Assembly (NCBI GenBank): GCA_031655335.1
Contig: CP134226.1
Span: 744,001 to 808,000, forward strand
DNA from: Thalassospiraceae bacterium LMO-SO8
Lineage (GTDB): Bacteria > Pseudomonadota > Alphaproteobacteria > Rhodospirillales > Casp-alpha2
DNA length: 64,000 nt
Direction: 5' to 3'
The notes below the pieces were generated by a model. It was given only the letters and a program-made list of their open reading frames with translations, was not told where the DNA came from and did no database searches. How positions within the stretch are numbered: the first letter of the stretch is position 1; each line of letters opens with the position of its first letter. Shown here piece after piece: positions 22,923 to 41,035 of this stretch. The translations under genes and the position numbers were made by a program.

Positions 22923-22945
22923 CTTATGCAGACCAACGGAGCGAC

Positions 22946-24424
22946 ATGCGCGACGGCATATTTCACCTGGACCGGCGGCCCAACATCTCGATCCAAGGCC
23001 AGATTCGCGAGATGCTGGTTTCGGCCATCCTGGGCCGCCAGTTGCCGGCGGGCGACCCTCTGCCATCGTCGCGCAAACTGGCGAAAAGCCTGGGTGTGTC
23101 GCGCAATACGGTGGTTCTGGCCTATCAGGGGCTGGTCGACGACGGCTATCTGGAATCCCGCGAACGGTCCGGCTTCTACGTCACCGACGACATCATGGAA
23201 GGCCGCGCCGACGAGCCCGCCGCGCCGCCGCCCGCCCCGGACCCGCGGCCCGGCAACGGCCCCGATTGGGCCGCGCGGTTCCAGGTTCATCCGTCCGATC
23301 AGTCCAATATCGTAAAACCGGGCAACTGGCTGACCTACCCCTACCCCTTCATTTACGGCCAGGTGGACCAGTCCCTGTTTCCCATCGCGCAGTGGCGGGA
23401 ATGCTCACGCCAGGCGCTGGGCCGCAAGGGCATGGACGTATGGACCGGCGACGCGCTCGCCGCCGACGATCCCATGCTGGTGGAACAGATTCAGACGCGC
23501 CTGCTGCCGCGCCGGGGCATCCTGGCCCGCGACGATGAAATCCTGGTGACCCTGGGCGCGCAGAACGCGCTCTATATCCTGGCCGCCCTGCTGGTGCGGG
23601 ACGAGACCTGCGTCGCCATCGAGGACCCGGGCTATCCCGACGTGCGCAACATTTTCGGGTTGAAGACGGACCGCATCCTGCCGGTTCCGGTCGACGCCCA
23701 CGGCCTGCCCGTGAACCAGCAACTGGACGGCGCCGACATCGTGTTCGTCACGCCGTCCCACCAGGCGCCGACCACGGTGACCATGCCCAAGGCCCGGCGG
23801 CAGGATTTGCTGACCCGGGCCGGGGAAAAGGACTTCGTGATCATCGAGGACGATTACGAGTGGGAAACCAATTACGTGTCCGAACCAACGCCGGCCCTGA
23901 AATCCATGGATACGGCCGGGCGGGTGATCTACGTGGGGTCCCTGTCGAAGACCCTGTTTCCGGGCCTGCGGCTCGGCTATCTGGTCGGCCCGGCGCCGCT
24001 GATCAAGGAAGCCCGCGCCTTGCGCCGCCTGATGCTGCGCCACGCGCCCAACAACAACCAGCGCACGGCGGCCCTGTTCCTGGCGCTGGGCCATCACGAC
24101 AGCCTGGTCCACAAGCTACAGAAGGCCTACCGCGAACGCTGGAAGATCATGGGCCGGGCGCTGGCCGACCATCTGCCCGGCTGGTCCAAGGCGCCGACCT
24201 TCGGCGGCACCAGCTATTGGGTCAGCGGGCCGGACGGCTTCGATGCCGGCAAGCTGGCCGACCGGGCGCTCGACGACGGCGTGATCATCGAACCGGGGCG
24301 CGTCAACTTCGCGGCCAAAAACGCCCCCCGCAACCATTTCCGCCTGGGATTCTCGTCGATCGCGGCCGAGCGGATCGAGCCGGGCATCCGTCTGCTCGCC
24401 GACATCATCAAGCGCGATATCTGA
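22946..24424 (+). CDS. tauR: TauR, MocR-type (GntR-aminotransferase) regulator of taurine use
   Basis: The 492-residue regulator has an N-terminal GntR winged helix (LPSSRKLAKSLGVSRNTVVLAYQ, about residues 38-60) joined by a Pro/Ala-rich linker to a class I aminotransferase-like domain. That domain has IEDDYEWETNYV and the PLP lysine in YVGSLSKTLFPGLRLGYL. MocR proteins bind PLP and an amino acid or amine ligand; TauR activates taurine genes when taurine is present. The start at 22946 follows CGGAG and gives a normal N-terminus; the frame extends 34 codons upstream into the operator repeats, which argues against the longer form. It is divergent from tpa and upstream of ald. Confidence 0.9.
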   Translation: MRDGIFHLDRRPNISIQGQIREMLVSAILGRQLPAGDPLPSSRKLAKSLGVSRNTVVLAYQGLVDDGYLESRERSGFYVTDDIMEGRADEPAAPPPAPDPRPGNGPDWAARFQVHPSDQSNIVKPGNWLTYPYPFIYGQVDQSLFPIAQWRECSRQALGRKGMDVWTGDALAADDPMLVEQIQTRLLPRRGILARDDEILVTLGAQNALYILAALLVRDETCVAIEDPGYPDVRNIFGLKTDRILPVPVDAHGLPVNQQLDGADIVFVTPSHQAPTTVTMPKARRQDLLTRAGEKDFVIIEDDYEWETNYVSEPTPALKSMDTAGRVIYVGSLSKTLFPGLRLGYLVGPAPLIKEARALRRLMLRHAPNNNQRTAALFLALGHHDSLVHKLQKAYRERWKIMGRALADHLPGWSKAPTFGGTSYWVSGPDGFDAGKLADRALDDGVIIEPGRVNFAAKNAPRNHFRLGFSSIAAERIEPGIRLLADIIKRDI

Positions 24425-24499
24425 CCCTGATCCGTATCAAGTTGCCCCCCCGGCCCGCAGTGGTAACATCGACGCCCTGAACAGGCCGGGAGAAGTACC

Positions 24500-25618
24500 A
24501 TGCGCATCGGCGTGCCCAAGGAGATCAAGGTTCACGAATACCGGGTCGGCATGACGCCCGCGAGCGTCGCCGAGGCGGTGCACCAGGGGCATACCGTGCT
24601 GGTCGAAACCGGCGCGGGCAAGGGTATCGGCGCCGCGGACGAGGCCTATGTCCGGGTCGGGGCGGAGATCGAACCCGACGCGGCCGCCGTGTTCGCCCGG
24701 GCGGACTTGATCGTCAAGGTCAAGGAGCCCCAGGCCGAGGAACGCCGGATGCTGCGCGAGGGACAGGTCCTGTTCACCTACCTGCACCTGGCCCCCGACC
24801 CCGAACAGACGCGCGAGTTGCTGGATACGGGCGTCACCGCCATCGCCTATGAAACCGTGACCGACGCCGGGGGCGGCCTGCCCCTGTTGCGGCCCATGTC
24901 CCAGATCGCCGGGCGCATGGCCGTGCAGGCGGGCGCGCACTGCCTGGAAAAGGAAGCCGGCGGGCGCGGCATCCTGTTGTCCGGCGTGCCCGGCGTGGCC
25001 CCCGCCAAGGTGGTCGTCATCGGCGGCGGCACGGTCGGCGCCAACGCCGCCGTGGTGGCGCTGGGCATGGGGGCGGACGTGACCGTGCTGGACACCGACG
25101 TGACCACCCTGCGGCACCTGGAACACCGCATGGGCCTGGGCCTGAAGACCGTCTATTCCAACCGCCACACGCTGGAAGAACAAGTCACCGCCGCCGACCT
25201 GGTGATCGGCGCCGTGCTGGTGCCGGGCGCGGAGGCTCCCAAACTGGTGACGCGCAGCATGGTCATGGTCATGAAGTCCGGGGCGGCTATCGTCGATGTC
25301 GCCATCGACCAGGGCGGCTGCTGCGAGACGTCGCGCCCGACCACGCATGCGGCGCCGACCTTCGTGGTCGACGAGGTGGTCCATTACTGCGTCGCCAACA
25401 TGCCGGGGGCGGTCGCCCATACCTCGGCCTATGCGCTCAACAACGCGACCCTGCCCTTCATCCTGGCCCTGGCGGGCAAGGGCGCCGAACAGGCCCTGGC
25501 CGACGACCCCCATCTGCTGGCCGGCCTCAACGTGCACAAGGGCAAGCTGACCTATCGGGCCGTGGCCGATGCCCAGGGCCTGCCGTTCGTGGAGCCGCGC
25601 ACCGCCCTGGGGGCCTAG
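24500..25618 (+). CDS. ald: Alanine dehydrogenase
   Basis: The 372-residue protein starts [20 protein letters not shown], the Ald signature with catalytic lysine and substrate-binding arginine in the first domain. It has TYLHLAPD and a Rossmann NAD site [13 protein letters not shown] near residue 172. It oxidises L-alanine to pyruvate and ammonium with NAD. In taurine dissimilation this regenerates the pyruvate acceptor used by Tpa and releases the amino nitrogen, which explains its place between tauR and xsc. Length and motifs are standard. GGGAGAAG lies upstream of the ATG. Confidence 0.96.
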
Positions 25619-25901
25619 AACGGCAGAAAATCGTATCAAAATCTCAAAACTGGGACGATATCGCACCATAAACCGATTTCTGGCCGGACCAAAAGGCGGC
25701 AACTGGCCCTATCCCCTGGACTAGGGAAGGCCTACCTACATCCTCACGGAATGCGGTGGTGACCGCCACGCCGAATAGGGGCCAATGGACGTGCCCGGCG
25801 CCGCGCGCCAACCGCGTTAAGGGTGCTATAACGTACGGAACAACACTCCATGCCGGCCCCAAGCGGCGGCCGGCCAAACTGCTTACGGGAGGATCCCAAG
25901 C

Positions 25902-27683
25902 ATGACCAAGATGAACACGGAAGAGGCCTTCGTTAAGGTCCTGCAAATGCACGGCATCGAACATGCCTTCGGCATCATCGGCTCGGCCATGATGCCGATC
26001 TCGGACCTGTTCCCCAAGGCGGGGATCACCTTCTGGGACTGCGCCCATGAATGCAACGCCGGCATGATGGCCGACGGCTTTACGCGCTCAAGCGGCAAGA
26101 TGGCCATGTGCGTCGCCCAGAACGGCCCCGGCATCACCAACTTCGTGACTCCGGTCAAGACCGCCTATTGGAACCACACGCCGATGCTGCTGGTCACGCC
26201 GCAGGCGGCCAACAAGACCATCGGCCAGGGCGGTTTCCAGGAAATCCCGCAGATGGCCCTGTTCGAAGACATGGTCTGCTATCAGGAAGAGGTCCGCGAC
26301 CCGACCCGCATCGCCGAGGTCCTGAACCGCGTGATCACCGAAGCCTGGCGCGGTTCCGGCCCGGCGCAGATCAACGTGCCGCGCGATTTCTGGACCCAGA
26401 TCATCGACATCGACCTGCCCCAGGTCATCAACATCGAACGCCCGTCGGGCGGCAAGCAGGCCATCGCCGATGCCGCCAAGATGCTGTCGACCGCCAAGTT
26501 CCCGGTCATCCTGAATGGTGCCGGCGTGGTGCTGTCGGGCGGCATCGAGGCCTCCAAGGCGCTGGCCGAACGCCTGTCGGCCCCGGTGTGCTGCGGCTAT
26601 CAGCACAACGACGCCTTCCCGGGCTCGCACCCGCTGTTCGCCGGGCCCTTGGGCTACAACGGCTCCAAGGCCGGCATGGAGCTGATCTCCAAGGCCGACG
26701 TGGTGCTGGCGCTCGGCACGCGGCTGAACCCGTTCTCGACCCTGCCCGGCTACGGCATGGATTACTGGCCGAAGAACGCCAAGATCATCCAGGTCGACAT
26801 CAAGGCCGAACGCATCGGCCTGACCAAGAAGGTCGATGTCGCCATCCAGGGCGACGCCAAGCAGGTCGCCGAACAGATCCTGGCCGGGCTGGCCCCGACC
26901 GCCGGCGACGCCGGGCGCAAGGAGCGCGAGGACCTGATCTCCACCACCAAGTCGCGCTGGCTGCAGACCCTGTCGTCCATGGACCATGAAGACGACGATC
27001 CGGGCACGACCTGGAACGAACGCGCGCGCAACAAGCATCCGGAACGGATGAGCCCGCGCATGGCCTGGCGCGCCATTCAGGCGGCGCTTCCGCGCGACGC
27101 CATCATCTCGTCCGACATCGGCAACAACTGCGCCATCGGCAACGCCTATCCGACCTTCGAACAGGGCCGCAAATACCTGGCCCCGGGCCTGTTCGGGCCC
27201 TGCGGTTACGGCTTCCCGTCGATCATGGGCGCCAAGATCGCCTGCCCGGACACCCCGGTCGTCGGCTTCGCCGGTGACGGCGCCTTCGGCATCTCCGCCA
27301 ACGAGATGACCGCCGTCGGCCGCGACGAATGGCCGGCCATCACCATGGTCATCTTCCGCAACTACCAGTGGGGTGCCGAAAAGCGCAACACCACGCTGTG
27401 GTATCAGGACAATTTCGTCGGCACGGAACTGGACCTCGACGTCCAGTACGCCAAGATCGCCGATGCCTGCGGCCTCAAGGGCGTGCAGGTCACGACCATG
27501 CAGGAACTGACCGATGCCCTGGACGCCGCCGTGAAGGCGCAGATGGAAAACAAGACCACGACCTTCATCGAGGTCATCCTGAACCAGGAACTGGGCGAGC
27601 CGTTCCGCCGCGACGCCATGAAGGCGCCGGTCGAGGTCGCGGGGATCAATCCCGGCGACATGCGCCCGCAGAAAGGGGCCTAA
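25902..27683 (+). CDS. xsc: Sulfoacetaldehyde acetyltransferase
   Basis: The 593-residue ThDP enzyme has the Xsc N-terminus (MNTEEAFVKVLQMHGIEHAFGIIGSAMMPI begins the pyrimidine-binding domain). It has a central FAD-less domain and a C-terminal pyrophosphate domain with GDGAFGISANEMTAVGR, followed by NYQWGAEKRNTTLWYQDN. Xsc converts sulfoacetaldehyde and phosphate to acetyl phosphate and sulfite. Its order ald-xsc-pta and the tpa gene upstream make the role clear. It is the meeting point for taurine and probably for sulfoacetate from the 58-64 kb operon. A 283-base gap upstream with several CTGGAC-like elements suggests its own TauR-controlled promoter. GGGAGGA precedes the ATG. Confidence 0.96.
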   Translation: MTKMNTEEAFVKVLQMHGIEHAFGIIGSAMMPISDLFPKAGITFWDCAHECNAGMMADGFTRSSGKMAMCVAQNGPGITNFVTPVKTAYWNHTPMLLVTPQAANKTIGQGGFQEIPQMALFEDMVCYQEEVRDPTRIAEVLNRVITEAWRGSGPAQINVPRDFWTQIIDIDLPQVINIERPSGGKQAIADAAKMLSTAKFPVILNGAGVVLSGGIEASKALAERLSAPVCCGYQHNDAFPGSHPLFAGPLGYNGSKAGMELISKADVVLALGTRLNPFSTLPGYGMDYWPKNAKIIQVDIKAERIGLTKKVDVAIQGDAKQVAEQILAGLAPTAGDAGRKEREDLISTTKSRWLQTLSSMDHEDDDPGTTWNERARNKHPERMSPRMAWRAIQAALPRDAIISSDIGNNCAIGNAYPTFEQGRKYLAPGLFGPCGYGFPSIMGAKIACPDTPVVGFAGDGAFGISANEMTAVGRDEWPAITMVIFRNYQWGAEKRNTTLWYQDNFVGTELDLDVQYAKIADACGLKGVQVTTMQELTDALDAAVKAQMENKTTTFIEVILNQELGEPFRRDAMKAPVEVAGINPGDMRPQKGA

Positions 27684-27697
27684 GCGCCCTTGCAAGA

Positions 27698-27782
27698 GGC
27701 CGGGAGGCCGCGGCAACCACCGCCCGTCTCCCGGCCCTCCCCTTTTCCCGGGCGCCCCTTTCTTGCGGGCGCCCCTTTTTTT
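27698..27782 (+). terminator. Two tandem hairpins after xsc, the second with a T-run
   Basis: First hairpin: GGCCGGGAG (27698) with CTCCCGGCC (27728). Second: GGGCGCCC (27750) pairs with its copy at 27767 and is followed by CTTTTTTT. The second has the form of a strong rho-independent terminator and lies before pta. Confidence 0.75.
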
Positions 27783-27798
27783 GGGTGTATGCTGAACC

Positions 27799-28740
27799 AT
27801 GCTGAGCACCGCGCCGTTCGAAGTTCCCCAATACCTGCTCGATAGGGCCAAGGGCCTGGACCGCGTGCCCATGGCCGTCGCCGGGGCCGACAACATGGTG
27901 GTCATGGAAAGTGCCCGTCAGGCGACGGACGCGGGCCTGATCGCGCCGGTCCTGGTCGGTGACCGGGATGAGATCGAAAGCCTGGCCGAAACCATGGGCT
28001 GGGACATTTCATCCTTTCGTATCGTCGAGACCGGAGAAGAAGACGAAGCCGCCGCCGCGCGCATGGCCGTGGCCCTGGCCCGTGACGGCGAGGTCAAGGC
28101 CTTGATGAAGGGCCATGTCCATACCGATGCCCTGATGGCCGCCGTGGTCGCCCGCGAGACGGGGCTGCGCACGGGACGGCGCCTGTCCCACGTCTTTCAC
28201 ATGACCGTGCCCGGCAGCGACCGGGTGCTGATGATCACCGACGGGGCCGTCAATATCGCCCCCAATGAAAACACCCTGATCGACATCGTCAACAACGCGG
28301 TCGGTCTGGCCCATGCGCTGGGCAACGCCAACCCCAAGGTCGCCATCCTGTCCGGCACGGAAAGCGCCCTGCCGGCCATGCCGTCGAGCATGCAGGCCAA
28401 GGTGATCGTCGAGCGTGCCCGCGCCGGCGAGGTCACGGGGGCGATCGTCGACGGCCCCTTCGCCTTCGACAACGCCATATCGCCCGAGGCGGCAAGGCTG
28501 AAAGGCATCGACAGCCCCGTCGCCGGCAACGCCGACATCCTGGTGGTGCCCAACATCGAAACGGGCAACGGGCTGTTCAAGATGATGGTCTATTTCATGA
28601 GCGGCCTGGCCGCGGGTATCGTGCTGGGGGCCAAGGTGCCGATCGTGCTGACGTCGCGCGCCGATCCGCCCGAAGCCCGCTTCGCCGCCACCGCCATCGC
28701 CGCCATCGCCGCCGCCGGGGGGACTAACGGCCCAGATTGA
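27799..28740 (+). CDS. pta: Phosphate acetyltransferase
   Basis: The 313-residue protein is the short, single-domain Pta/phosphate butyryltransferase type with AVAGADNMVVMESARQATDAGL near the start. It has KALMKGHVHTDALMAAV and the closing GNADILVVPNIETGNGLFKMMVYF. It turns the acetyl phosphate made by Xsc into acetyl-CoA. Its position just after xsc supports that role. There is no clear ribosome site before the ATG and a terminator-like hairpin lies between xsc and pta, so its expression may be set separately. Its 3' end overlaps the convergent gene by 17 bases. Confidence 0.92.
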   Translation: MLSTAPFEVPQYLLDRAKGLDRVPMAVAGADNMVVMESARQATDAGLIAPVLVGDRDEIESLAETMGWDISSFRIVETGEEDEAAAARMAVALARDGEVKALMKGHVHTDALMAAVVARETGLRTGRRLSHVFHMTVPGSDRVLMITDGAVNIAPNENTLIDIVNNAVGLAHALGNANPKVAILSGTESALPAMPSSMQAKVIVERARAGEVTGAIVDGPFAFDNAISPEAARLKGIDSPVAGNADILVVPNIETGNGLFKMMVYFMSGLAAGIVLGAKVPIVLTSRADPPEARFAATAIAAIAAAGGTNGPD

Positions 28741-30832: not shown

Positions 30833-31564
30833 ATGGACGGCGACAAGACATCTTCAGGCACCGTGTACGAGGAACCGGGCTGCGCCTACTGCCCGCCCAG
30901 CGTTCAGGCCTGCCGCCAGGGCGAAGGCGACAGCCGTGGGCCCGGGTTCTGCCCGTCCAAGGTCTGCCCCGATACCATCCGGGACGCCGTCGGCCATTAC
31001 CAGGATCCGACCATCCTGAAGGTCGCCCAGGTCTCGGCCCGGATCGAGGCCGAAGGCTACTGTAAATGGACGCGGGTCGAGGAGATCGTCCAGTTCGCCA
31101 GGCAGATGAGCTTCACCAAGATCGGCGTCGCCAGCTGCATCAGCTTCCTGGAACAGGCCAAGGTTCTGAGCGGCGTGCTGGAAAGCCACGGGTTCGAGGT
31201 CGTCTCGACCGCCTGCAAGCACGGCGGCGTGCCCAAGGAAGACATCGGCCTGCGCGACGACGAGAAAATCCGCCCGGGCCAGCACGAAAGCATGTGCAAC
31301 CCGGTATCGCAGGCCCAGGTGCTGAACGCGGCCGGCTGCGAATTCAACATCGTGCTGGGCCTCTGCGTCGGTCACGACAGCCTGTTCTTCAAATACTCGC
31401 AGGGCCTGGCGACGACCCTGGTCGCCAAGGACCGGGTGCTCGCCCACAACCCCATCGGCGCCCTGAACCTGGCGGACACCTACTATTCGCGCATCTGGGG
31501 CCCGGACAAACCGGCCAAGACGCCGAACAAGCCGAAGGCGGCCGCCAAGCCCGCGAGGGAATAG
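30833..31564 (+). CDS. DUF1847 cysteine-rich protein, probable metal-binding
   Basis: The 243-residue protein matches the DUF1847 family. It has an N-terminal cysteine cluster (GCAYCPPSVQAC, GFCPSKVCPDT), then YCKWTRVEEIVQFARQMSFTKIGVASCISF. Further blocks are VSTACKHGG and the conserved end NIVLGLCVGHDSLFFKYSQG followed by LVAKDRVLAHNPIGAL. About ten cysteines suggest an iron-sulfur or zinc centre; the role of the family is unknown. It has no signal peptide. AGGTGAGGAG lies upstream of the ATG. It is the only plus-strand gene in this stretch and converges with the flavoprotein gene two bases away. Confidence 0.8.
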   Translation: MDGDKTSSGTVYEEPGCAYCPPSVQACRQGEGDSRGPGFCPSKVCPDTIRDAVGHYQDPTILKVAQVSARIEAEGYCKWTRVEEIVQFARQMSFTKIGVASCISFLEQAKVLSGVLESHGFEVVSTACKHGGVPKEDIGLRDDEKIRPGQHESMCNPVSQAQVLNAAGCEFNIVLGLCVGHDSLFFKYSQGLATTLVAKDRVLAHNPIGALNLADTYYSRIWGPDKPAKTPNKPKAAAKPARE

Positions 31565-31565
31565 C

Positions 31566-33305
31566 CTACTCCGCCGCCCCTTCCGTCAGAAGGGTCTCGC
31601 CCGGTTTCACGCGGGTGAATTTCACCGGCTCCGTGGTGATGCCGATCTGGCCGTGGCCGTCGAGGGTCACGCGGGTGAAGCGGGAATTCTCGACATCCCG
31701 CACGTCCGGGTAATCGGCGCGGTAGTGCGCCCCCCGGGAGTCGTCCCGCGCCGTGGCCGCCGCGGTGATGGCCTTGGACACCAGGATCAGGTTCTTCAGG
31801 TTCAGCCAGTCGTGCCAGGTCAGGTTATAGGCCAGGTCCGTGCCGGTGACGCCGGTGGCGTCCAGATCGTGTTCGAGGGTTTCCAGGCCGGCCTCGGCCC
31901 GTTTCAACGAGTCCAGGTCGCGGATGATGCCCGCGTCTTCCCACATCAGATCGTAGAGCCGCTTGCGGATGCCGTCGATGTCGCCCTTCGGTTGGGTCAG
32001 GGGACGGCCCGCGCGCATCACGGCGTCTTCCAGGGCGGCCGGGTCCGGGTCGGCGAATTGGCCGTGGTCGGGGGTCCAGGCCGCGATGGTGTCGCCGGCG
32101 ATGCCGCCGAACACGGTCGAGTTGGCGACGCCGTTGCCGCCCAGACGGTTGGCGCCGTGGACGCCGCCCGTATCCTCGCCAGCGGCGAACAGGCCGGGGA
32201 TGGCGGTCGAGCAATCGGCCTCGAACTCGGCCCCGCCCATCATGTAGTGCGCCGTGGGCACGACCTCGACCAGCCCGGCGGCGAGGTCGAAGCCGCAATC
32301 GGCGCAGCGCTCCACCATGCCCTTGAAGTTCTTGCGCACCTGGGCCGTATCCAGATGCTTCATGGTGATGTAGAGCCCGCCGTTGGCGGCGACGTTGCCG
32401 GCGCGCATTTCCGTGAACATGGCGCGGGACACGATGTCGCGGGTCGCGCGCTCGTTGCGCTCGTCGTACTTGTGCATGAAGCGCTGTTCGTCGCCGCCCA
32501 ACAGGTAGCCGCCGAAGCCGCGCAGACCTTCCTCGATGATCGTGCCGGTCATGCGGGTGTCCGACCCGGCGATCAGGCCCGTGGGGTGGAACTGCACCAT
32601 TTCCATGTCGCGCATGCCAAGGCCCGCACGCAGGGCCATGGCCATGCCGTCGCAGGATTTGTCGCCCGAGGGCGTGTGGTACTTGTACATGGTCGGCCCG
32701 CCGCCGGTCGCCAGCAGCACGGCCTTGGCCTGCACGAAGCGGAACTGCCCCGTGCGCATGTCGATGAACAGCACGCCGGACATGCGCGATCCGTCCGCCG
32801 ACTTGATCAGCTCGATGGCGCGATGGTCTTCCAGCTTGTCGACGTCGCGCGCCCAGGTCTGTTCCATCAGGCGGTTGATGATCTCGATGCCCGTCAGGTC
32901 GCCCTTGTGCACCGTGCGGTCGAAGGTCTGCCCGGCGAAGGCCTTCTGGTGGATGGAGCCGTCCGGGTTGCGGTCGAAATAGCAGCCGAGCTCGTTCTCC
33001 AGCTCGCGGATGCGGACCTGGGCCTGGGTCACCAGGGTCCAGGCAAGGTCCTGGTTGTTGAGCCACTTGCCGCCCTCGACCGTGTCCATGAAATGGCGTT
33101 CGGCGGAATCGCCCGGCGCCAGGGCGACGTTGTAGCCGCCCTGCACCATGCGGGTGCAGCCGGTCTTGCCGAGCAAGCCCTTGACCGCCACGGTCACCTT
33201 CAACTGCGGCGCCAGGTCCTTGGCGTGCAGGGCCGCGAACAGCCCGGCCCCGCCGGAGCCCAGGATCAGAACGTCGGTCTGCTGTGTGTCGATGTCGGGT
33301 TTCAC
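31566..33305 (-). CDS. Succinate dehydrogenase/fumarate reductase-like flavoprotein subunit
   Basis: The 579-residue protein has the SdhA/FrdA layout: FAD Rossmann motif VLILGSGGAGLFAA, substrate-site H240 in QFHPTG, proton-relay R289, H352 in PTAHYMMGG and R386 in VHGANRLGG. Two differences stand out. The histidine that binds FAD covalently in SdhA is Cys here (C50 in KTGCTRMVQGG). The TE pair next to the substrate is EE (258-259), with RGEGG changed to RGFGG. It probably uses a substituted dicarboxylate and non-covalent FAD. It starts with GTG overlapping the stop codon of the hydratase beta gene (GTGA) and ends the operon that begins with gntR. Confidence 0.85.
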   Translation of the reverse strand: MKPDIDTQQTDVLILGSGGAGLFAALHAKDLAPQLKVTVAVKGLLGKTGCTRMVQGGYNVALAPGDSAERHFMDTVEGGKWLNNQDLAWTLVTQAQVRIRELENELGCYFDRNPDGSIHQKAFAGQTFDRTVHKGDLTGIEIINRLMEQTWARDVDKLEDHRAIELIKSADGSRMSGVLFIDMRTGQFRFVQAKAVLLATGGGPTMYKYHTPSGDKSCDGMAMALRAGLGMRDMEMVQFHPTGLIAGSDTRMTGTIIEEGLRGFGGYLLGGDEQRFMHKYDERNERATRDIVSRAMFTEMRAGNVAANGGLYITMKHLDTAQVRKNFKGMVERCADCGFDLAAGLVEVVPTAHYMMGGAEFEADCSTAIPGLFAAGEDTGGVHGANRLGGNGVANSTVFGGIAGDTIAAWTPDHGQFADPDPAALEDAVMRAGRPLTQPKGDIDGIRKRLYDLMWEDAGIIRDLDSLKRAEAGLETLEHDLDATGVTGTDLAYNLTWHDWLNLKNLILVSKAITAAATARDDSRGAHYRADYPDVRDVENSRFTRVTLDGHGQIGITTEPVKFTRVKPGETLLTEGAAE

Positions 33306-33913
33306 GAGGAAACTCCCATGCTGGCCAGCGCCTCGGCGCGGCGATCCTCGGCGGTCTTCTTGACGCCGTCATAGAGCGAGCCGCCGTGGGCGTCCATGGC
33401 GACCAGCAGCGGGCCGAAGCCCTTGATCTTGAATTCCCACAGGCATTCGGGGTTGAGGTCTTCCAGGTCCACGTCCGTGATCTGTTCGATCCAGGTCGTT
33501 TCCAGCGCCGCCGTGCCGCCGATGATGGCCAGGTACACGCCGCCGAATTCCTGGAACGCGGCGCGGCTGTCCTCGCCGAGGCCGCCCTTGCCGATGACCA
33601 TGCGCACGCCGTACTGCTCCATCAGCGGGCGGGTGAAGCGTTCCATGCGCTGCGAGGTCGTGGTGCCGATGCACACGCTCTCGTAGCCCGCCGGGCAGAA
33701 GTTCGACTTCGGCACCTTCTTCACGTTGGGCGCCGTGTGGATCACCGCATGGCCGTTCAGGTCGAACCGGGTCGTGCGGCCCTTGTCGAACATGTGGATC
33801 TGCGTCGCGTCGCGGATGCCGTAAAGCCAGTCTTCCAGGATCACCGTGTCGCCGGCCTTGAGTTCCCTGATCTGTTCCTCGGTGCAGGGCATGTGGATCG
33901 TATGTTCGGTCAT
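33302..33913 (-). CDS. Class I fumarase / L-tartrate dehydratase-like beta subunit
   Basis: The 203-residue protein corresponds to the C-terminal domain of class I fumarases. It has LKAGDTVILEDWLYGIRDATQ, then CPAGYESVCIGTTTSQRMERF with the TTTSxRM substrate loop, and VIGKGGLGEDSR. It closes with LEDLNPECLWEFKIKGFGPLLV. It pairs with the alpha gene 17 bases upstream. Together they should hydrate a fumarate-like double bond, or dehydrate malate or tartrate analogues. Candidates are fumarate, mesaconate, tartrate or a sulfonated C4 acid; the sequence does not decide. It is translationally coupled to the flavoprotein gene. Confidence 0.85.
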   Translation of the reverse strand: MTEHTIHMPCTEEQIRELKAGDTVILEDWLYGIRDATQIHMFDKGRTTRFDLNGHAVIHTAPNVKKVPKSNFCPAGYESVCIGTTTSQRMERFTRPLMEQYGVRMVIGKGGLGEDSRAAFQEFGGVYLAIIGGTAALETTWIEQITDVDLEDLNPECLWEFKIKGFGPLLVAMDAHGGSLYDGVKKTAEDRRAEALASMGVSS

Positions 33914-33930
33914 GATCTTCGCTCCCTTCC

Positions 33931-34806
33931 TCAGAAACCGATCTCGACGCCCTTGGGCGTGAAGGTCGCCCGGGCGCGGCGCGCCGAATGGCACATGATG
34001 TTGACGGCGACCGGGTTCATGGTGATGTGGGTGGCGGCGGTTTCGACGTGCACGGCGAAAGCGGTGGAATCGCCGCCCAGGCCCTGCGGGCCGATGCCCA
34101 GCATGTTGACGGCGTGGGACAGCTCCTTTTCCAGCTTGGCGCCCTCCGGGTCTTCGCAGACGGAGCCCAGGGGCCGGGCCCCCGCCTTCTTGGCCAGCTT
34201 GGTGCAGAGGTCCGACGTGCCGCCGACACCGACGCCGACGATGGTCGGCGGGCACACGCGCCCGCCCACTTCCATCACCTTGTCGACGACGAAGGTCTTG
34301 ATGCCGGCGACGCCTTCCGCCGGGATGCACATCTTCAGGAAACTGCCGTTCTCCGAGCCGGACCCCTTGGGGATCATTTCCATCTCGAAGAACTCGTCCT
34401 TGTCGGAAAAGTCGATGGTGATGACCGGCACCTTGATGCCGCAGGACGTCTGCTCGTTCACGCGGGTGATCGGATGCACGACGGAGGAGCGCAGCGGATG
34501 TTCCACCGTCGCCCGCTCGCAGCCCTTGCGGATCGCCTGCTTCAGGGCGTGGCCGTCGACCTCGACCCCCCGGCCGATCAGGATGTTGTAGATGGGAATT
34601 CCTGTGTCCTGGCACAGGAGGTTGGTCGTGTCCTCGGCCACGTCGATGTTCTTGATCATGGTCGCCAGGATCGACTTGGCGGTCGGGTCCGTTTCCGTCG
34701 CGTCCAGGCGCTTGAAGCCGTCCTTGATGTCCGGCGGCAGAATCTTCAGCGCCTGGATGTACAGGTGTTTGGCCGTTTCCTCGACGGCGGCGAGATCGAG
34801 TTTCAT
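33931..34806 (-). CDS. Class I fumarase / L-tartrate dehydratase-like alpha subunit
   Basis: The 291-residue protein is the iron-sulfur domain of a two-subunit class I fumarase-type hydratase. Candidate [4Fe-4S] ligands are the cysteines in NLLCQDTGIPIY, in FLKMCIPAEGV and in GGTSDLCTKLAKKAG. EQTSCGIKVPVI and GLGGDSTAFAVH are family blocks. Two-subunit forms of this length are known for TtdAB and for archaeal and bacterial fumarases. It follows the TauE/SafE gene by 12 bases in the operon and precedes beta. The oxygen-sensitive cluster suggests use under low oxygen or good iron supply. Confidence 0.87.
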   Translation of the reverse strand: MKLDLAAVEETAKHLYIQALKILPPDIKDGFKRLDATETDPTAKSILATMIKNIDVAEDTTNLLCQDTGIPIYNILIGRGVEVDGHALKQAIRKGCERATVEHPLRSSVVHPITRVNEQTSCGIKVPVITIDFSDKDEFFEMEMIPKGSGSENGSFLKMCIPAEGVAGIKTFVVDKVMEVGGRVCPPTIVGVGVGGTSDLCTKLAKKAGARPLGSVCEDPEGAKLEKELSHAVNMLGIGPQGLGGDSTAFAVHVETAATHITMNPVAVNIMCHSARRARATFTPKGVEIGF

Positions 34807-34818
34807 CTTGGTCGTCTC

Positions 34819-35547
34819 CTAGACAATCAACGTCACCCCGGCAACGCCCAGGATGGCCAGGACGATGCGCCGGAAGCGTTCTTCGTTCAAACGGGTGTAG
34901 CAGCCGATGCCGATCAGCCCACCCAGGGCCATGGCCGGCATGGCCCAAAGATAGTTGTGCGCCAGCTGCGGCGTGATCAGGCCCGCGTAGGCCATGGCGG
35001 CCAGGGACAGGCTGTGCATGATCAGGATGAACGGCTGGGTCACGCCGCGGGCCTGATCGCGGGGCCAGCCGCGCAGGCCGCTCCACACCGCGGGCACGAT
35101 GCCGGACAAGCCCGCCATGCCGCCCAGCACGCCGCCGATGCCGCCCGCCGCCGCGTCCAGCCCGCGCCCGCCCCGGGTAATGGTCGGCGGGTTGGCGAAG
35201 ATCAGCAGCCCGCCGCCGTAAAGCACCAGAAGGGCACCCACGGCGAGCTTGAACGGTTCCGGCGGCAGGTGTTGCAGCAGCCAGGTGCCCAAGGGCACGC
35301 CGATCACGCCGAGCGCCAGGAACGGCAGCAGGCGCGAGAAATCCAGGCGATTGCGCAGGCGGAGCAGCAGGAACACGTGCAGGGTGATGCCGGTCAGGAT
35401 AATCAGGGGTGCGGCCTCGACCGGCGGCAGGACGTGCAGCCAGAACGCCGCCGACACCAGGGCGTCACCGAAGCCCGACGCCCCCGCGACGAAAGCCGCG
35501 AGGAAGGCGCCGAGAACGACGATCAGTTCGGGCGACAACTCGTTCAT
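34819..35547 (-). CDS. TauE/SafE-family permease in the SDH-fumarase operon
   Basis: The 242-residue protein has about eight membrane helices and the two-repeat TauE/SafE pattern: AAFVAGASGFGDALVSAA in the first half and GGIGGVLGGMAGLSGIVPAVW in the second. Family members export sulfite, sulfoacetate or other anions, or import organic acids. Its place between the SDH-like membrane subunits and the hydratase suggests it moves the substrate or a released anion of this pathway. A start at 35568 overlapping the previous stop codon is possible; 35547 gives a normal N-terminus. No sulfite dehydrogenase is in the window, so it may also handle sulfite from Xsc. Confidence 0.85.
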   Translation of the reverse strand: MNELSPELIVVLGAFLAAFVAGASGFGDALVSAAFWLHVLPPVEAAPLIILTGITLHVFLLLRLRNRLDFSRLLPFLALGVIGVPLGTWLLQHLPPEPFKLAVGALLVLYGGGLLIFANPPTITRGGRGLDAAAGGIGGVLGGMAGLSGIVPAVWSGLRGWPRDQARGVTQPFILIMHSLSLAAMAYAGLITPQLAHNYLWAMPAMALGGLIGIGCYTRLNEERFRRIVLAILGVAGVTLIV

Positions 35548-35557
35548 GGTGATCCGG

Positions 35558-35896
35558 TCATCCCGCATTGAGAAGGAACAGCAGCCCCGCCGCGAGCGAC
35601 AATCCGCCGGTGACGGCGACCACCGATTTCTGCCAGTTGCGCCAAGCGAGGAATTCGATGGCGAGGATGCGAAGGCCGCCGGTCATGTGGGCCGCGAGCA
35701 GGATCACCAGCCCGGTTTCCAAAAGCTTGACCGCGGGTGCTTCGGTCCACGACAGGAACATGTCGAGGGTCGCCGATTGTTCGACGGCCAGCGCCAGGAC
35801 ATAAAAATGCGCCGGCAGGAACAGCAGCAGGGCGAGCCCGGAAATCCGGTGCAGGACGAAGGCCCAGTAGTTGGCGTGGTTGCGGTGCGTTTTCAT
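35558..35896 (-). CDS. SDH-like cytochrome b membrane subunit 1
   Basis: The 112-residue protein has three membrane helices and the HRISGLALLLFLPAHFYVL block that matches SdhC-type subunits, with histidines that may bind haem b. It is shorter than typical SdhC (about 125 residues). It lies four bases after the second membrane subunit in a tight operon order (iron-sulfur, membrane, membrane, permease). It should anchor the dehydrogenase and pass electrons to quinone. Confidence 0.8.
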   Translation of the reverse strand: MKTHRNHANYWAFVLHRISGLALLLFLPAHFYVLALAVEQSATLDMFLSWTEAPAVKLLETGLVILLAAHMTGGLRILAIEFLAWRNWQKSVVAVTGGLSLAAGLLFLLNAG

Positions 35897-35900
35897 GGTG

Positions 35901-36266
35901 TTACGCCCCCGTTCCCAAGTTTCCCAGGCCGTAAAGCCCGATCACGGCGCGGAAGCCCATGACGAGGATGGCCAGGCAGACGGCGGCCATGATCCAATGC
36001 GTCGCGCGGCGGCCGAGGGCCGTGTATTCGCGCAGGATATTGCGCAGCCCCGTCGGCGCGTGCAGCGCCACGGCGATCACGAACACGGAATAGAACATCA
36101 ACCAGGGCACGGAACCGCCGACCCGGGCGACGATTTCCTTGGACGTTACCCCGCCCTGCACGGCGATGACGATGACCGCCAGATGCACGATCACGCAGAC
36201 CGCCAGCACGGCGGCGGAGACCCGCTGCATCAGCCATTCCAGGGTTTCGGCGCGTTCGGGGGTCAT
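35901..36266 (-). CDS. SDH-like cytochrome b membrane subunit 2
   Basis: The 121-residue protein has three predicted membrane helices. Its start, EWLMQRVSAAVLAVCVIVHLAVI, resembles SdhD or FrdC-like anchors with the QRxS motif and a possible haem histidine. WLMFYSVFVIAVALHAPTGLRNILREY supplies another candidate histidine in helix two. It follows the iron-sulfur subunit by three bases. With subunit 1 it should form the membrane anchor and quinone site. Confidence 0.78.
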   Translation of the reverse strand: MTPERAETLEWLMQRVSAAVLAVCVIVHLAVIVIAVQGGVTSKEIVARVGGSVPWLMFYSVFVIAVALHAPTGLRNILREYTALGRRATHWIMAAVCLAILVMGFRAVIGLYGLGNLGTGA

Positions 36267-36269
36267 CGA

Positions 36270-36989
36270 TCAGATCTCCCCCTTCAGCGCCGCCTTGACC
36301 GTCGCCCGCTTGAGCCCGGCGATCGACGCCGTCGGGTTCAAATGCTTGGGGCACAGTTCGAAACAGCTTTGGTGGGAATGACAGGCCTGACAGCCGCCGG
36401 TCCCGGCGATGGCCTTCAGCCGCTCCGGCTGACCGCCGTCGCGCGCGTCGTTGACCAGGGTCCAGGCCCGGTTGAGGGCGGCGGGGCCGAGATAGTCACC
36501 CAGCCAGGCGACCGTGTCGCAAGCCGAATAGCAGACGCCGCAGTTGATGCATTCGATGCCGGCCGTGGCTTCCTTGCGCTTGGGGTCGCTGGGCGACACC
36601 TGGGCGAAGTCGTCATGGCGGGTCGCCGTCGGCACGAAATGGGCCTTGGCCTTGGTCCATTTTTCGAAAAATTCGGTCATGTCCACGGCAAGGTCGCGGA
36701 TCACCGGCATGTTCTTCAGGGGCTGGATGCGCAAGACGCCCTCGTCCGCGACCTTGTCGACATGGGTGCGGCAGGTCCAGCGCGGCTTGCCGTTCACGGT
36801 CATGGCGCAGGACCCGCAAACCCCGACCCGGCAGGCGAAGCGGTAGCTGAGCCCCGGGTCCAGGTTGCGCTGCACGTAGGTGACGATGTCGAGCACGGTC
36901 TGGCTGGCCATGCGCGGCACTTCGAAGGTATCGAACCGGCCGTCCTCGCGGCCGCGCCAGATTTCCACGGTAAGGGTGTCGTTGCTCAT
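36270..36989 (-). CDS. SDH/fumarate reductase-like iron-sulfur subunit
   Basis: The 239-residue protein has all three cluster motifs of SdhB/FrdB: a [2Fe-2S] set with C53, C58, C61 and C73; a [4Fe-4S] set CINCGVCYSAC (147-157); and a third set with C200, C203, C209 and C213 in CFELCPKHLNP. It carries electrons from the flavoprotein to the membrane subunits. Unlike standard sdh operons, where sdhB is last, it is the first catalytic gene, and the flavoprotein gene is last, separated by the permease and hydratase genes. It follows the gntR gene by 37 bases. Confidence 0.9.
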   Translation of the reverse strand: MSNDTLTVEIWRGREDGRFDTFEVPRMASQTVLDIVTYVQRNLDPGLSYRFACRVGVCGSCAMTVNGKPRWTCRTHVDKVADEGVLRIQPLKNMPVIRDLAVDMTEFFEKWTKAKAHFVPTATRHDDFAQVSPSDPKRKEATAGIECINCGVCYSACDTVAWLGDYLGPAALNRAWTLVNDARDGGQPERLKAIAGTGGCQACHSHQSCFELCPKHLNPTASIAGLKRATVKAALKGEI

Positions 36990-37026
36990 ATGTATTCCAT
37001 CCGTATGGCCATCCCTATGGGTCTTC

Positions 37027-37794
37027 CTATTCGTGTTTCTCGCCGAGAACCAGGCGCGGGCCGCCCGGCGGGAACCAGGCGGTCTGATAGCTGATGGGCC
37101 GGTCGCGGTGCGCGAACCCTTCCATGTGATAGGCCAAGCCCACCATGCCCGGCGTCAGGCCGAGGGCCGCCGTGACCGTTTCCGGCAGAGGGCCGCAGGC
37201 GGCCATCTCGCGCACACGTTCCGTGGCGACCCCGAAGCGGTCCGTGAGGAAAGCGCGGATGTTCACATTCTCCAAATCCTTGGGCCGAACCTTCAACAGG
37301 CCCGGCACGCGGGATTCGGGCAGGTACAGTTCGCTGATCCCCATATGGGCATGGTCCACGTCGATGCGCCGGGTGACGACGATCAGGTCCCTGGTGCCCA
37401 GAAAGTCGCGCCAGGGCCCGGGTCGGCGCACGGCGTCGATGGAGCCGACCTGGGTATAGACCGGCAGCAGCGAGCGCCCGTCATCGGCGAGAAAGCGGAA
37501 ATGCCACAGGTCCTGGGGCGCCATCGCCGGTTCGGCGACGAAGGTGCCGTGACCGTGGCGGCGGACCAGCAGACCCCGTTCGGCAAGATTGTTGAGCGCG
37601 CGCTGAATGGTGCCCAGGCTGGCCGGCAGCACCCGCGCCAGTTCGCTTTCCGGCGGCAGTTTCTCGCCGGTCTTCAGGCGGCCCTGCAAAATCGCGCGGG
37701 CGATGGCGTCGGACAGTTGCAGGTACTTGGGCAGGCGCGGCATGCCTGAATGAGCGCCATCCTCAAGCACCGTCGCCAAGGCGGAGAAAACCAT
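37027..37794 (-). CDS. GntR/HutC-family regulator with UTRA domain
   Basis: The 255-residue regulator has an N-terminal winged helix (KTGEKLPPESELARVLPASLGTIQRALN, about residues 42-69) and a C-terminal UTRA ligand domain with ELYLPESRVPGLL and MEGFAHRDRPISYQTAWFP. HutC-type regulators usually repress catabolic operons and respond to the pathway substrate or an intermediate. It heads the SDH-hydratase operon and has a perfect 18-bp palindrome about 78 bases upstream. The likely model is that it represses its own operon until a dicarboxylate analogue binds. A start 17 codons further in (MPRLPKYLQ) is possible. Confidence 0.88.
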   Translation of the reverse strand: MVFSALATVLEDGAHSGMPRLPKYLQLSDAIARAILQGRLKTGEKLPPESELARVLPASLGTIQRALNNLAERGLLVRRHGHGTFVAEPAMAPQDLWHFRFLADDGRSLLPVYTQVGSIDAVRRPGPWRDFLGTRDLIVVTRRIDVDHAHMGISELYLPESRVPGLLKVRPKDLENVNIRAFLTDRFGVATERVREMAACGPLPETVTAALGLTPGMVGLAYHMEGFAHRDRPISYQTAWFPPGGPRLVLGEKHE

Positions 37795-37871: not shown

Positions 37872-37889
37872 CCTATATAGCTATATAGG
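37872..37889. promoter_or_regulatory. Perfect 18-bp palindrome, candidate operator of the GntR regulator
   Basis: CCTATATAGCTATATAGG reads the same on both strands. It lies 78 bases before the regulator start, in an AT-rich stretch within otherwise GC-rich DNA, and just after the VOC gene stop codon. Its position suits autoregulation and control of the SDH-hydratase operon. Confidence 0.7.
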
Positions 37890-37905: not shown

Positions 37906-38772
37906 TCAGCTGATCGACAGAACGATGAGACAACCGAAGGCATCTTCGCCGGAAACGTAAATGCGCCCGCCGACACGCCGAAATGCGACGCCGTTCTTCC
38001 GCCACAAAGCCTCGGCGACGTCCAGGTCATCGACGGCGACGCGGAACCCGGCGAACCGCGCTTCGCCCTCCGGCACCGCCGGAGGCTGTACCCCGGGATA
38101 GGTCTCGGCAAAGGCCTCCGGTTCCAGAACGCAGAACCCGGCCCCGTCCAAGCCTGCGCAGATGCCGCCGTTGATGGGCACCACCGCCCCGAACAGGCGC
38201 TTGAACAGGCCGATATGGGCTTCCGGGTTTTCCGCGACCATCTGCACTTCGACAATCCGCCGCGCCCCGTTGGCATGGGTCTGGTACTGGGGTTTCCAGA
38301 AGATTTCCCCCGGATGGCGATGGTCGCAGGTGAAGAAGGGAGCCCGCGGCAGGGCCGGGTCCGTCAGGAAGGTCAGACGGAAATCCAGTTTCACCTCGCT
38401 GCCGTCGGGCTGACGCGCCTTGCGCCCGAAAGCGAAGGGAGCATGCAGTTTGAACCCCGCCCGCTCGAACCGGGCCCGGTCGATCTCCCACCCATCCGAG
38501 GTCAGGGCCAGCATGGACATGCCGTCCCCGGTCTTCAGGTAATCCCGGTTATAGGCGCCGAAGGAAAAGTCGCCGCCCTTGGCCTCGGGCACCTCGTCCG
38601 GCTTGGTCACGGTCAGCAGCTCGATAAAACTTCCCTGAAGCTGGGCCAGGCGGTTGCCGGTGCCGAACGGGTGCTGCGCCTGGGGCGTCAGCGTGAAACC
38701 GAGCCGTTCATAGAAGGCCGAAAGCGCCGCCAGATCGCGGGCGGCCAAGACGACGTGATCGATGCCTGTCAT
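37906..38772 (-). CDS. VOC-family (glyoxalase-like) protein
   Basis: The 288-residue protein has two vicinal-oxygen-chelate modules. It starts GIDHVVLAARDLAALSAFYERLGF, the usual glyoxalase-fold entry, and has FFTCDHRHPGEIFWKPQYQ in the middle with His and Glu that may bind metal. FAGFRVAVDDLDVAEALWRKNGV is in the second module. It resembles the Glyoxalase_3 group; substrates of that group are mostly unknown. It lies ten bases downstream of the DUF3604 gene on the same strand and upstream of the gntR unit. Confidence 0.82.
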   Translation of the reverse strand: MTGIDHVVLAARDLAALSAFYERLGFTLTPQAQHPFGTGNRLAQLQGSFIELLTVTKPDEVPEAKGGDFSFGAYNRDYLKTGDGMSMLALTSDGWEIDRARFERAGFKLHAPFAFGRKARQPDGSEVKLDFRLTFLTDPALPRAPFFTCDHRHPGEIFWKPQYQTHANGARRIVEVQMVAENPEAHIGLFKRLFGAVVPINGGICAGLDGAGFCVLEPEAFAETYPGVQPPAVPEGEARFAGFRVAVDDLDVAEALWRKNGVAFRRVGGRIYVSGEDAFGCLIVLSIS

Positions 38773-38782
38773 GGATAGCCTG

Positions 38783-41035
38783 TCATGGAACGAGGTAAAT
38801 GGGCGACGACCAGATGACGTGGCCGTCTTCCAGCGCGATGCGCACGTAAAGGGCGTTGTCGCGGTCGGGGTTGAGGGGAATCTTGCGCTCCAGCTTGAGC
38901 CGCTTATGAGGGTTTTCCTCGGGAATTCGGTAGATCCGCACGCGGCGGCCGAGACCGCCGGCCTCCAGGCAGATATCCTCGCGCCCGATGTCCTGCACGG
39001 CGATGGTTTTCTTGACCAGGGGCGTGTCGATGCGCAGCCAGCCCATGACCATGTCGTCCAGCCAGGCGTCGAAACCGATGAAGCCCCCCGTGGTCAGGGA
39101 CGACCATTCGACGCGCTGGGGCGACACCAGGTCCAGGCGCTTTTCGATGTTGTACCAGTTGATGGCTTCGATGTGCGTGAAGGCGTTGCCCGACAGTTCG
39201 GCGAACCCGTCCCACACGGTTTCCCGGCCGCGGCCGCGGTATTCGGAGCCCTCCCAGATGACCCGGATGCGCCTGCCCATGTCTTCCTTTTCCGACGGCC
39301 GCCAGGTTTCCAGCAGGCGCAGGCCGTCGCGGATGTCGATGCGTTCGATCGGCGCGGCGGCATGGATGTCGATCTCGAAGGTCACGCTGTCGGCGCCGGT
39401 GCGCAGGATGTCGCCCATGACCGCCTCGGTGACCCGTTCGTCGGGCGGCCCGCCGAGCGCCGGATCGTCGTCGAAGCGGTCGGCGGGGGCGTCCAGCGTC
39501 ACCCGGGTCGACAGCACCGCCCGGCAGCCCGTGGTGCAGTAATGGTGGCGGCGTTTCAGCGCCGTCATCAGATCCTTGCGGGTCAGGTCGTCGGCGGACA
39601 GGCAGGTCAGCCCGCCGTAGGCGCCGAACCGCGTGGCCCCGGGGTGCGAAGCCCCGGGCCGGCCCTTGTGCCCGTCCGAGGTCGCGAGAATGCCCGTGCG
39701 ATATCCCATCTCGAAGGCGTCCTCGACCAGCCATTCAAAGGTGCCCCAGGCGGAATGAACCTCGACTGAACGTTCCAATTTTCGGTCGTGTCCGCGCCGA
39801 ATGTCGGCATAGCGCCCGCCCACATGGGCGAACACCATGACGTCTTCGTCTTTCAGCTTGTCGAACAGGTCCTCGACGCTGTTGGCGTCCTGCGCCAGGT
39901 CGCTGGTGTCCTCGACCAGGGCGTGGGACGAGCGGTAGATGGGCCGGCCTTCCTCGGCATAGAGAATATTGCGGTCGCCGCCCAGGCAGGTATTGGCCGA
40001 CCATTCATAGCCGGGGATGACGATGAAGCGGCTGTCCTGCGTGAACTCGCGGCTCAGGCTGTTCAACTCGTCCCAGAATGCCGACGTGATCTGAAAATCG
40101 TTGCCCTGATGCACCGTGGCGTCGAGAAACGCCCTGTCGCGGGCAAAGGAAAAGTAGGAACGTGCGTTGTTGGTGCCGATGGTTTCCTGAGACTGGCCAT
40201 GCAGGTCGGCCCAGAAGCTGACGCGGTCGGTCTTCGCCACCACGCGCAACGGGTTGGAGCGCGCCGCCAGGTTGCCGTCCATGTCGACCAGATCGATGCA
40301 CAGGTCGCCTTCCTCTTCCGCGCGCAGGCCGTCGATCTGCACCGACGCCTGGCCGGGGTAGAACGAGATCTCGTCCGGCAGGTTTTCGACCGGCCGGGTC
40401 GAGGTGACACGAAAGGTATCCTCGCATTTGGCCGAGGGATTGCCCCAGCGGTCCTCGCCCTTGAGGCCCAGCAAAAAGGTCTCGCCCACCCGTTTCAGGG
40501 TCGGCAGAACGGCTTTGTAGAGCACGGGCGGGCCGGACACGATCTCGATCGACGGTGTGTCGGGCAGCTCGACGTAGTCATAGGTCGCGAAGGCGTCGAC
40601 CAGGATGCGGAACTGGAATTCCTGTTCCTGAAACGTCTGCATGCGCACGCCCGGGCCGCCGAACCGGCGGTCGCCGATGCGGATCACGATGCGGTCGCCT
40701 TCACTGAGGAACCCGCGCACGACCTTGATGTAGAGCGTCTTGTCCCAGGGCCGAAAGTTGCGCTTGAGGTCGTATTCCATATGCAGGACGGCGCCGTTGG
40801 ACGCCTGGGCCGAGACGTAATTGGCGCCTTCCGGGTCGTCCATCTGCAACCTGCCCAGGTCCGAGGCGAAGCGGTGCACGATCTTGAGCGAGCCGGAATC
40901 GTCGATCCCGAACTTGCCCGCCGTGTAGATGACGAAAAAGGATTGGAAACTGCCCGCTTCCACCGGCCCCAAGGGGGCGATGGAGACGGAGCCCATTTCC
41001 TCCGGCAGATAGGTCGAAAGCGGCATACCTCCCAC
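38783..41035 (-). CDS. Large DUF3604-like (PHP-related) protein
   Basis: The 750-residue protein has an N-terminal beta-rich part (about 1-275) and then a metallo-domain beginning SFWADLHGQSQETIGTNNA. The domain continues with VIPGYEWSANTC, VMVFAHVGGRYADIRR and LATSDGHKGRPGASHPG, which fits the DUF3604 family. His/Asp clusters suggest a PHP-like metal site and a hydrolase role that is not established. No signal peptide is seen, so it is cytosolic. The ATG at 41026 is an alternative start to the GTG at 41035. It may be in one unit with the VOC gene and perhaps the dehydrogenase gene upstream, 119 bases away. Confidence 0.78.
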   Translation of the reverse strand: MGGMPLSTYLPEEMGSVSIAPLGPVEAGSFQSFFVIYTAGKFGIDDSGSLKIVHRFASDLGRLQMDDPEGANYVSAQASNGAVLHMEYDLKRNFRPWDKTLYIKVVRGFLSEGDRIVIRIGDRRFGGPGVRMQTFQEQEFQFRILVDAFATYDYVELPDTPSIEIVSGPPVLYKAVLPTLKRVGETFLLGLKGEDRWGNPSAKCEDTFRVTSTRPVENLPDEISFYPGQASVQIDGLRAEEEGDLCIDLVDMDGNLAARSNPLRVVAKTDRVSFWADLHGQSQETIGTNNARSYFSFARDRAFLDATVHQGNDFQITSAFWDELNSLSREFTQDSRFIVIPGYEWSANTCLGGDRNILYAEEGRPIYRSSHALVEDTSDLAQDANSVEDLFDKLKDEDVMVFAHVGGRYADIRRGHDRKLERSVEVHSAWGTFEWLVEDAFEMGYRTGILATSDGHKGRPGASHPGATRFGAYGGLTCLSADDLTRKDLMTALKRRHHYCTTGCRAVLSTRVTLDAPADRFDDDPALGGPPDERVTEAVMGDILRTGADSVTFEIDIHAAAPIERIDIRDGLRLLETWRPSEKEDMGRRIRVIWEGSEYRGRGRETVWDGFAELSGNAFTHIEAINWYNIEKRLDLVSPQRVEWSSLTTGGFIGFDAWLDDMVMGWLRIDTPLVKKTIAVQDIGREDICLEAGGLGRRVRIYRIPEENPHKRLKLERKIPLNPDRDNALYVRIALEDGHVIWSSPIYLVP

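Follow-up and report, generated by a model that had tools for sequence, protein, structure and literature searches.

The operon described here, eight genes in a stretch of 64,000 nucleotides from the genome of Thalassospiraceae bacterium LMO-SO8 (contig CP134226.1, positions 744,001 to 808,000; the window), has its closest described counterparts in complex II, in the two-subunit class I hydratases and in the enzymes of sulfolactate degradation. In complex II structures, His355 and Arg390 bind one carboxylate of the substrate, while His232, Thr244 and Glu245 bind the other. The tricarballylate dehydrogenase TcuAB contains a flavoprotein that oxidises a succinate-like carboxylate, as is proposed here, but its architecture is different and it has no hydratase pair. 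Sulfolactate degradation by SuyAB, or by ComC/SlcC, ComDE and Xsc, begins at sulfolactate; the genes of these systems adjoin or co-occur with the operon in most operon genomes, and the operon would feed them sulfolactate derived from 3-sulfopropionate. As judged from gene content and linkage, the operon quite probably serves the aerobic breakdown of 3-sulfopropionate and encodes the enzymes of its first two steps.

3-Sulfopropionate is formed from homotaurine, and from sulfoquinovose-derived dihydroxypropanesulfonate by gut and other bacteria. A 2024 paper (PMC11489063) stated that no earlier report of its degradation by bacteria existed, and showed that it is excreted by Enterococcus gilvus. 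A Konstanz thesis, as cited in that paper, has Roseovarius nubinhibens degrading homotaurine via 3-sulfopropionate, sulfoacrylate and sulfolactate. Homotaurine and 3-sulfopropionate metabolism as cited there (excretion by Cupriavidus necator, and the R. nubinhibens thesis) thus has the same proposed intermediates as the operon. A 2026 review describes the mechanism by which Bilophila degrades 3-sulfopropionate further as unclear. No genes for the last two steps, from 3-sulfopropionate to sulfoacrylate and on to sulfolactate, were found in the literature searched, which took in few subscription papers, so that such genes could be missed. Literature searches on sulfosuccinate degradation genes and on sulfoacrylate gave nothing beyond PMC11489063 and reviews.

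Family searches confirmed all eight genes of the operon as real:

37027..37794, minus strand: GntR family regulator with a UTRA domain (PF00392, PF07702)
36270..36989, minus strand: SdhB-like iron-sulfur subunit with the cluster cysteines present in the alignment (TIGR00384, 195.5 bits, cut-off 88)
35901..36266, minus strand: SdhD-like membrane anchor with conserved His and Arg (PF01127; TIGR02968 slightly under cut-off)
35558..35896, minus strand: SdhC-like cytochrome b anchor with conserved HR-x-SG and haem-type His (PF01127; TIGR02970 slightly under cut-off)
34819..35568, minus strand: TauE/SafE permease (PF01925, 102.8 bits, over cut-off)
33931..34806, minus strand: HydA, hydratase alpha subunit, proposed 3-sulfoacrylate hydratase (PF05681, 294 bits)
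about 33302..33913, minus strand: HydB, hydratase beta subunit (PF05683, 102 bits)
31566..33305, minus strand: SdhA-like flavoprotein, proposed 3-sulfopropionate dehydrogenase subunit (PF00890/PF02910)

The order gntR-sdhB-sdhD-sdhC-tauE-hydA-hydB-sdhA runs from 37794 down to 31566, and adjoining genes share a few bases or leave a gap of no more than 37 bases. An earlier note, made from the sequence alone, had correctly described a tightly packed set on one strand; its count of seven genes becomes eight when both anchors and both hydratase subunits are included.

The partners of the operon act on sulfolactate, which is malate with a sulfonate in place of the distal carboxylate. The matching exact isostere of succinate is 3-sulfopropionate, with 3-sulfoacrylate as the fumarate-type intermediate. 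We propose that the SdhABCD-like proteins act as a membrane-bound 3-sulfopropionate:quinone oxidoreductase yielding 3-sulfoacrylate, which HydAB would hydrate to sulfolactate. The product would probably be the (R)/L form, because substituting a sulfonate for the distal carboxylate makes the geometry of L-malate correspond to (R). In the window's genome, ComC/SlcC-type dehydrogenases would oxidise sulfolactate to sulfopyruvate, ComDE would decarboxylate this to sulfoacetaldehyde, and Xsc would cleave sulfoacetaldehyde to acetyl phosphate and sulfite in a last, desulfonating step. In most relatives SuyAB would cleave sulfolactate directly. Membrane-bound dehydrogenation of a succinate analogue followed by hydration, with a sulfonate as the favoured substrate, had been suggested in the earlier note and is supported as a reading, and the case for a sulfonate as substrate is strong given the linkage to SuyAB, ComDE and Xsc.

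Recurrent neighbours of the core genes are SuyA- and SuyB-type proteins, a 2-hydroxyacid dehydrogenase, an Ldh_2 protein (14 loci; its top NCBIfam match, under cut-off, is L-sulfolactate dehydrogenase) and Xsc (12 loci, well over cut-off). Plasmid pMRAD01 of Methylobacterium radiotolerans carries sdhBDC-hydAB-sdhA, tauE, suyA-suyB, dctA, slcC-type, comC-type and gntR genes in one cluster. SuyB was assigned by sequence identity: the operon-linked protein shares 80% identity with the product of a Paracoccus gene, and 68% with that of the gene next to hpsN-hpsO on a plasmid of Cupriavidus pinatubonensis. The SuyAB of C. pinatubonensis is a published (R)-sulfolactate sulfolyase (PMC12890257).

These neighbours bear on the two C4 substrates named in the earlier note, both of which are less likely than the C3 compound 3-sulfopropionate. 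Sulfosuccinate, also a succinate analogue, would be converted by the complex to sulfofumarate and by HydAB to sulfomalate, followed by a SuyB-like cleavage to oxaloacetate and sulfite; alternatively, hydration at the sulfonated carbon would free sulfite at once. One remodelled carboxylate site in the flavoprotein (see below) and a TauE acting as sulfite exporter would suit this route, yet the conserved downstream enzymes act on the C3 compounds sulfolactate and sulfopyruvate: SuyB is 68–80% identical to genes of sulfopropanediol/sulfolactate loci, and ComDE, which a C4 product would not feed, occurs in all genomes of the window's type. We regard sulfosuccinate as unlikely. The other candidate, methylsuccinate, oxidised to mesaconate and hydrated to citramalate, can draw on the fact that class I hydratases include mesaconases. 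However, among the conserved neighbours typed by family searches there were no citramalate or mesaconate genes, including those for the CoA derivatives, and the tie to sulfonate genes is strong, which makes this route extremely improbable.

If the operon makes sulfolactate, the genomes that carry it should be able to use sulfolactate. SuyB counts per locus are undercounts, as open reading frame calls took antisense frames in some betaproteobacterial loci (cluster C16), and a genome-wide search was used instead. It covered 47 operon-bearing entries; as G122 and G396 are one and the same, these represent 46 different genomes. SuyB scored at least 466 bits in 34 of the 47, and ComE was over its curated cut-off in seven, all of them SuyB-negative, namely the window's genome and those of loci L007–L012. 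The two never occurred together, and one route was present in 41 entries. Among 385 alphaproteobacterial genomes, 33 have SuyB and 10 have ComE over cut-off; one or other route is found in nine of the ten operon genomes against 34 of the 375 others (Fisher p about 1e-8, uncorrected for kinship and overstating independence, since the ten genomes with the operon come from five families).

The window's genome (3.98 Mb, one contig) lacks SuyB, a profile search giving no PF20629 match. It encodes ComD (148.7 bits, cut-off 147.95) and ComE (228.8 bits, cut-off 221.5), and comD-comE stand at 3.12 Mb next to another GntR gene, in a row with the 2-hydroxyacid dehydrogenase and Ldh_2 genes that follow them. 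The window itself holds xsc and its partner in what appears to be a taurine-type cluster (21440–28740):

21440-22813, minus strand: omega-aminotransferase (NCBIfam match over cut-off)
22844-24424, plus strand: MocR-type regulator (NCBIfam match over cut-off)
24500-25618, plus strand: alanine dehydrogenase (NCBIfam match over cut-off)
25902..27683, plus strand: Xsc, sulfoacetaldehyde acetyltransferase (TIGR03457, 929.5 bits, cut-off 676.4)
27799..28740, plus strand: phosphate acetyltransferase-like gene, the partner of xsc (NF006045, 362.5 bits, cut-off 282; NF008852, 336.7 bits)

All that this genome would still need for a complete path to acetyl-CoA and sulfite is sulfolactate, and the operon would provide it.

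The proteins of the operon share with E. coli SdhCDAB and FrdABCD the four-subunit layout, the iron-sulfur cysteines, the haem-type His and quinone-site motif of the anchors, and the catalytic residues Arg287, His355, Arg390 and His232. They differ in having Glu at Thr244, Cys at His44, the residue that links flavin adenine dinucleotide (FAD), a longer loop after His232, an SdhA under the succinate dehydrogenase (SDH) and fumarate reductase cut-offs, and a hydratase in the same operon. A flavoprotein, a three-cluster iron-sulfur subunit and haem-type anchors are encoded together (PF00890, PF02910, PF13085, PF01127). In the alignment, residues expected of a functional quinone-linked complex II are preserved, including the SdhB cluster cysteines, the haem-type His of the anchors and the HR-x-SG motif. 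The SdhA-like protein scores 412.8 bits on TIGR01812, under its cut-off of 567.3, and misses the SDH equivalog TIGR01816 (328 against 727.35 bits).

The active site of SdhA was aligned in E. coli FrdA numbering for 32 full-length loci together with the Methylobacterium and Rhodococcus proteins. Of the full substrate-site set (His232, Thr244, Glu245, Arg287, His355, Arg390), Thr244 alone deviates: the other five residues are retained throughout the clade, and Thr244 is replaced by Glu in 32 of 32 loci and in the Methylobacterium and Rhodococcus proteins, without exception. The FAD-linking His44 is Cys in all of them, and the loop following His232 is longer. The site is thus retained for one end of the substrate and altered for the other, as would suit an analogue of succinate in which another group takes the place of one carboxylate.

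HydAB shares PF05681 and PF05683, the cluster cysteine and the catalytic motifs with the two-subunit class I hydratases fumarase, L-tartrate dehydratase (TtdAB) and mesaconase. Both subunits are present, with CQDTG and GKGG conserved. It forms a separate clade, linked to sulfonate genes, in which the beta-subunit class motif GPTT has become GTTT and AGP has become TAP; the clade-wide substitutions of HydA adjoin the conserved His of the alpha subunit. The HydA clade is discrete, as in the 385 alphaproteobacterial genomes ten score 550–583 bits and the next best match 218. Scores on the TtdAB equivalogs are under cut-off (alpha 182.5 of 365, beta 140.9 of 264). The changes in SdhA and HydAB suggest a shifted substrate, without indicating which one.

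The genome has canonical citric acid cycle enzymes elsewhere. A canonical sdhCDAB lies at about 2.06 Mb, its SdhA scoring 957.6 bits on TIGR01816 (cut-off 727), and a separate fused class I fumarase is found at 2.41 Mb. The operon is therefore an addition and not the cycle's own enzymes, so that the set is not, as the earlier note had allowed for, the organism's only SDH and fumarase. An ordinary second SDH and fumarase serving the citric acid cycle would agree with the general family membership and with the fumarate hydratase score of HydA given below; we rejected it as very unlikely in view of the canonical copies, the failed SDH family cut-offs and the altered active site.

Several points weigh against oxidation of 3-sulfopropionate by this operon. 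HydA is over the cut-off of the NCBIfam fumarate hydratase NF004885 (300.4 against 276), although this is a broad, generic model. Neither SuyB nor ComE was found in six of the 47 entries (G292, G393, G399, G404, G409 and G420), of which G292 is 78% complete and one has a 64-residue SuyB fragment. The ComC and SlcC proteins are candidates, assigned by context and position. A Glu opposite a sulfonate is not obviously favourable. Going by E. coli FrdA variants, the lack of the FAD-linking His in this complex is expected to disfavour oxidation of the succinate type, unless Cys too links the flavin, and the Cys at this position is compatible with a reductive role. HydAB might then dehydrate sulfolactate to sulfoacrylate and the complex reduce this to 3-sulfopropionate, as an electron sink resembling fumarate reductase. 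The lost His recalls enzymes that reduce without oxidising, and fumarate reductase families are among the top NCBIfam matches. Such a reversal is nevertheless quite unlikely, as desulfonation enzymes and uptake receptors occur in the same loci and xsc-pta in the window suggests full breakdown.

The spread of the operon was followed by a HydA scan of contigs from one genome per species. The six-gene core sdhB-sdhD-sdhC...hydA-hydB...sdhA was found in the same order in 38 loci, with hydA 69–99% identical, in Rhodospirillales-type metagenome-assembled genomes, Betaproteobacteria, Chelatococcus and Rubritepida; most loci derive from metagenome-assembled genomes. Its recurrence is not due to chance. 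The slot between sdhC and hydA varies: it holds TauE or, in many other loci, TctC receptors or other transporter genes, and some betaproteobacterial loci have NMT1-type and DctM (TRAP) genes after hydB. Pairwise distances of SdhA, SdhB, HydA and HydB correlate (r = 0.81–0.89, 28 loci), as expected if the genes travel together. The module is also found on Methylobacterium plasmids at 69% identity and on Rhodococcus jostii RHA1 pRHL1 at 49%. The Rhodococcus locus is a divergent set, sdhB-sdhA-sdhC-hydA-hydB, with suyAB and comC- and slcC-type genes roughly 14–20 kb away.

We consider it likely that a paralogue of complex II, in which one carboxylate site is rebuilt and Cys occupies the position of flavin attachment, oxidises 3-sulfopropionate with quinone and that a dedicated class I hydratase then yields sulfolactate, as a sulfonate copy of the succinate-fumarate-malate segment. 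It would occur across Pseudomonadota and, in divergent form, in Actinomycetota, coupled alternatively to SuyAB or to ComDE-Xsc.

Upstream of the operon lies a likely operator of the regulator:

37872..37889, no strand: CCTATATAGCTATATAGG, a perfect palindrome of 18 bp and candidate operator for GntR, 78 bp upstream of where gntR is annotated to start

It is the sole such site in the genome, even allowing two mismatches, with none expected in shuffles of the window, and the six closest relatives (L007–L012) retain it with at most one mismatch. GntR probably represses the operon from this palindrome. In locus L062 (4945-5718, 5711-5985) a second GntR gene is divergent from comDE, and the gap between them holds a different palindrome-like sequence, TCTTCTATAAGAGTTATAAGACTTG. 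The most likely role of TauE is sulfite export, which has also been proposed for the TauE of the sulfofucose pathway (PMC12421959), although it could instead move the substrate; a TauE gene has been termed a probable 3-sulfopropionate exporter (PMC11489063).

Several genes lie outside the conserved core. Immediately upstream of the operon, Glyoxalase_3 and DUF3604 proteins are encoded on the minus strand (37906-41035); they are kept in most of loci L007–L014 and not in the betaproteobacterial loci. Aconitase-X genes are inserted near the operon in several alphaproteobacterial copies, namely L013 (4044-5617), L009, L014 and L018; those of L013 and L014 have a small partner gene. A sulfatase-family gene, unexpected in a sulfonate operon, lies between sdhC and a TctC or hydA gene in L019 (4778-6205) and six other betaproteobacterial loci. 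This group-wise variation, with DUF3604 and glyoxalase in alphaproteobacteria, aconitase-X pairs, and a sulfatase in several betaproteobacteria, might point to another sulfonated or branched analogue, such as a methylated sulfopropionate, as the actual substrate, with a route that would still lead into the metabolism of sulfolactate or of a close homologue. This is improbable, however, since the core with SuyAB or ComDE fits unsubstituted 3-sulfopropionate and needs no further step. The aconitase-X pair, DUF3604 and glyoxalase were set aside as pathway steps, as the core occurs without them.

On the other side of the operon, a cysteine-rich protein of 243 amino acids (30833-31564, plus strand) ends two bases from sdhA; it is conserved in L010–L012 and had no NCBIfam match at the threshold used. 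Further away, genes for a succinate-CoA-ligase-like pair, an aldehyde dehydrogenase, a TauD dioxygenase and an IclR regulator stand in a row on the minus strand (58621-63864). This run resembles systems that pair a CoA ligase with an acylating aldehyde dehydrogenase and act on sulfoacetate or 3-sulfopropionate (SauCD/SauS, HpfXYZ). The earlier note counted two other sulfonate loci in the window; one corresponds to the taurine-type cluster, and the second is probably the CoA-ligase/aldehyde dehydrogenase/TauD part of this run (58621-63019).

From a conserved and widespread gene set follow predictions of enzymes, of intermediates and of two alternative exits, which makes the question of 3-sulfopropionate degradation directly testable. 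If the proposal is true, a step of the sulfur cycle for which the literature searched held no published genes would gain them. It would also mean that the citric acid cycle has had an entire segment duplicated and retuned for a sulfonate. The change of Thr to Glu, together with that of the FAD-linking His to Cys, would then serve as a signature to find such enzymes among genes annotated as fumarase and succinate dehydrogenase.

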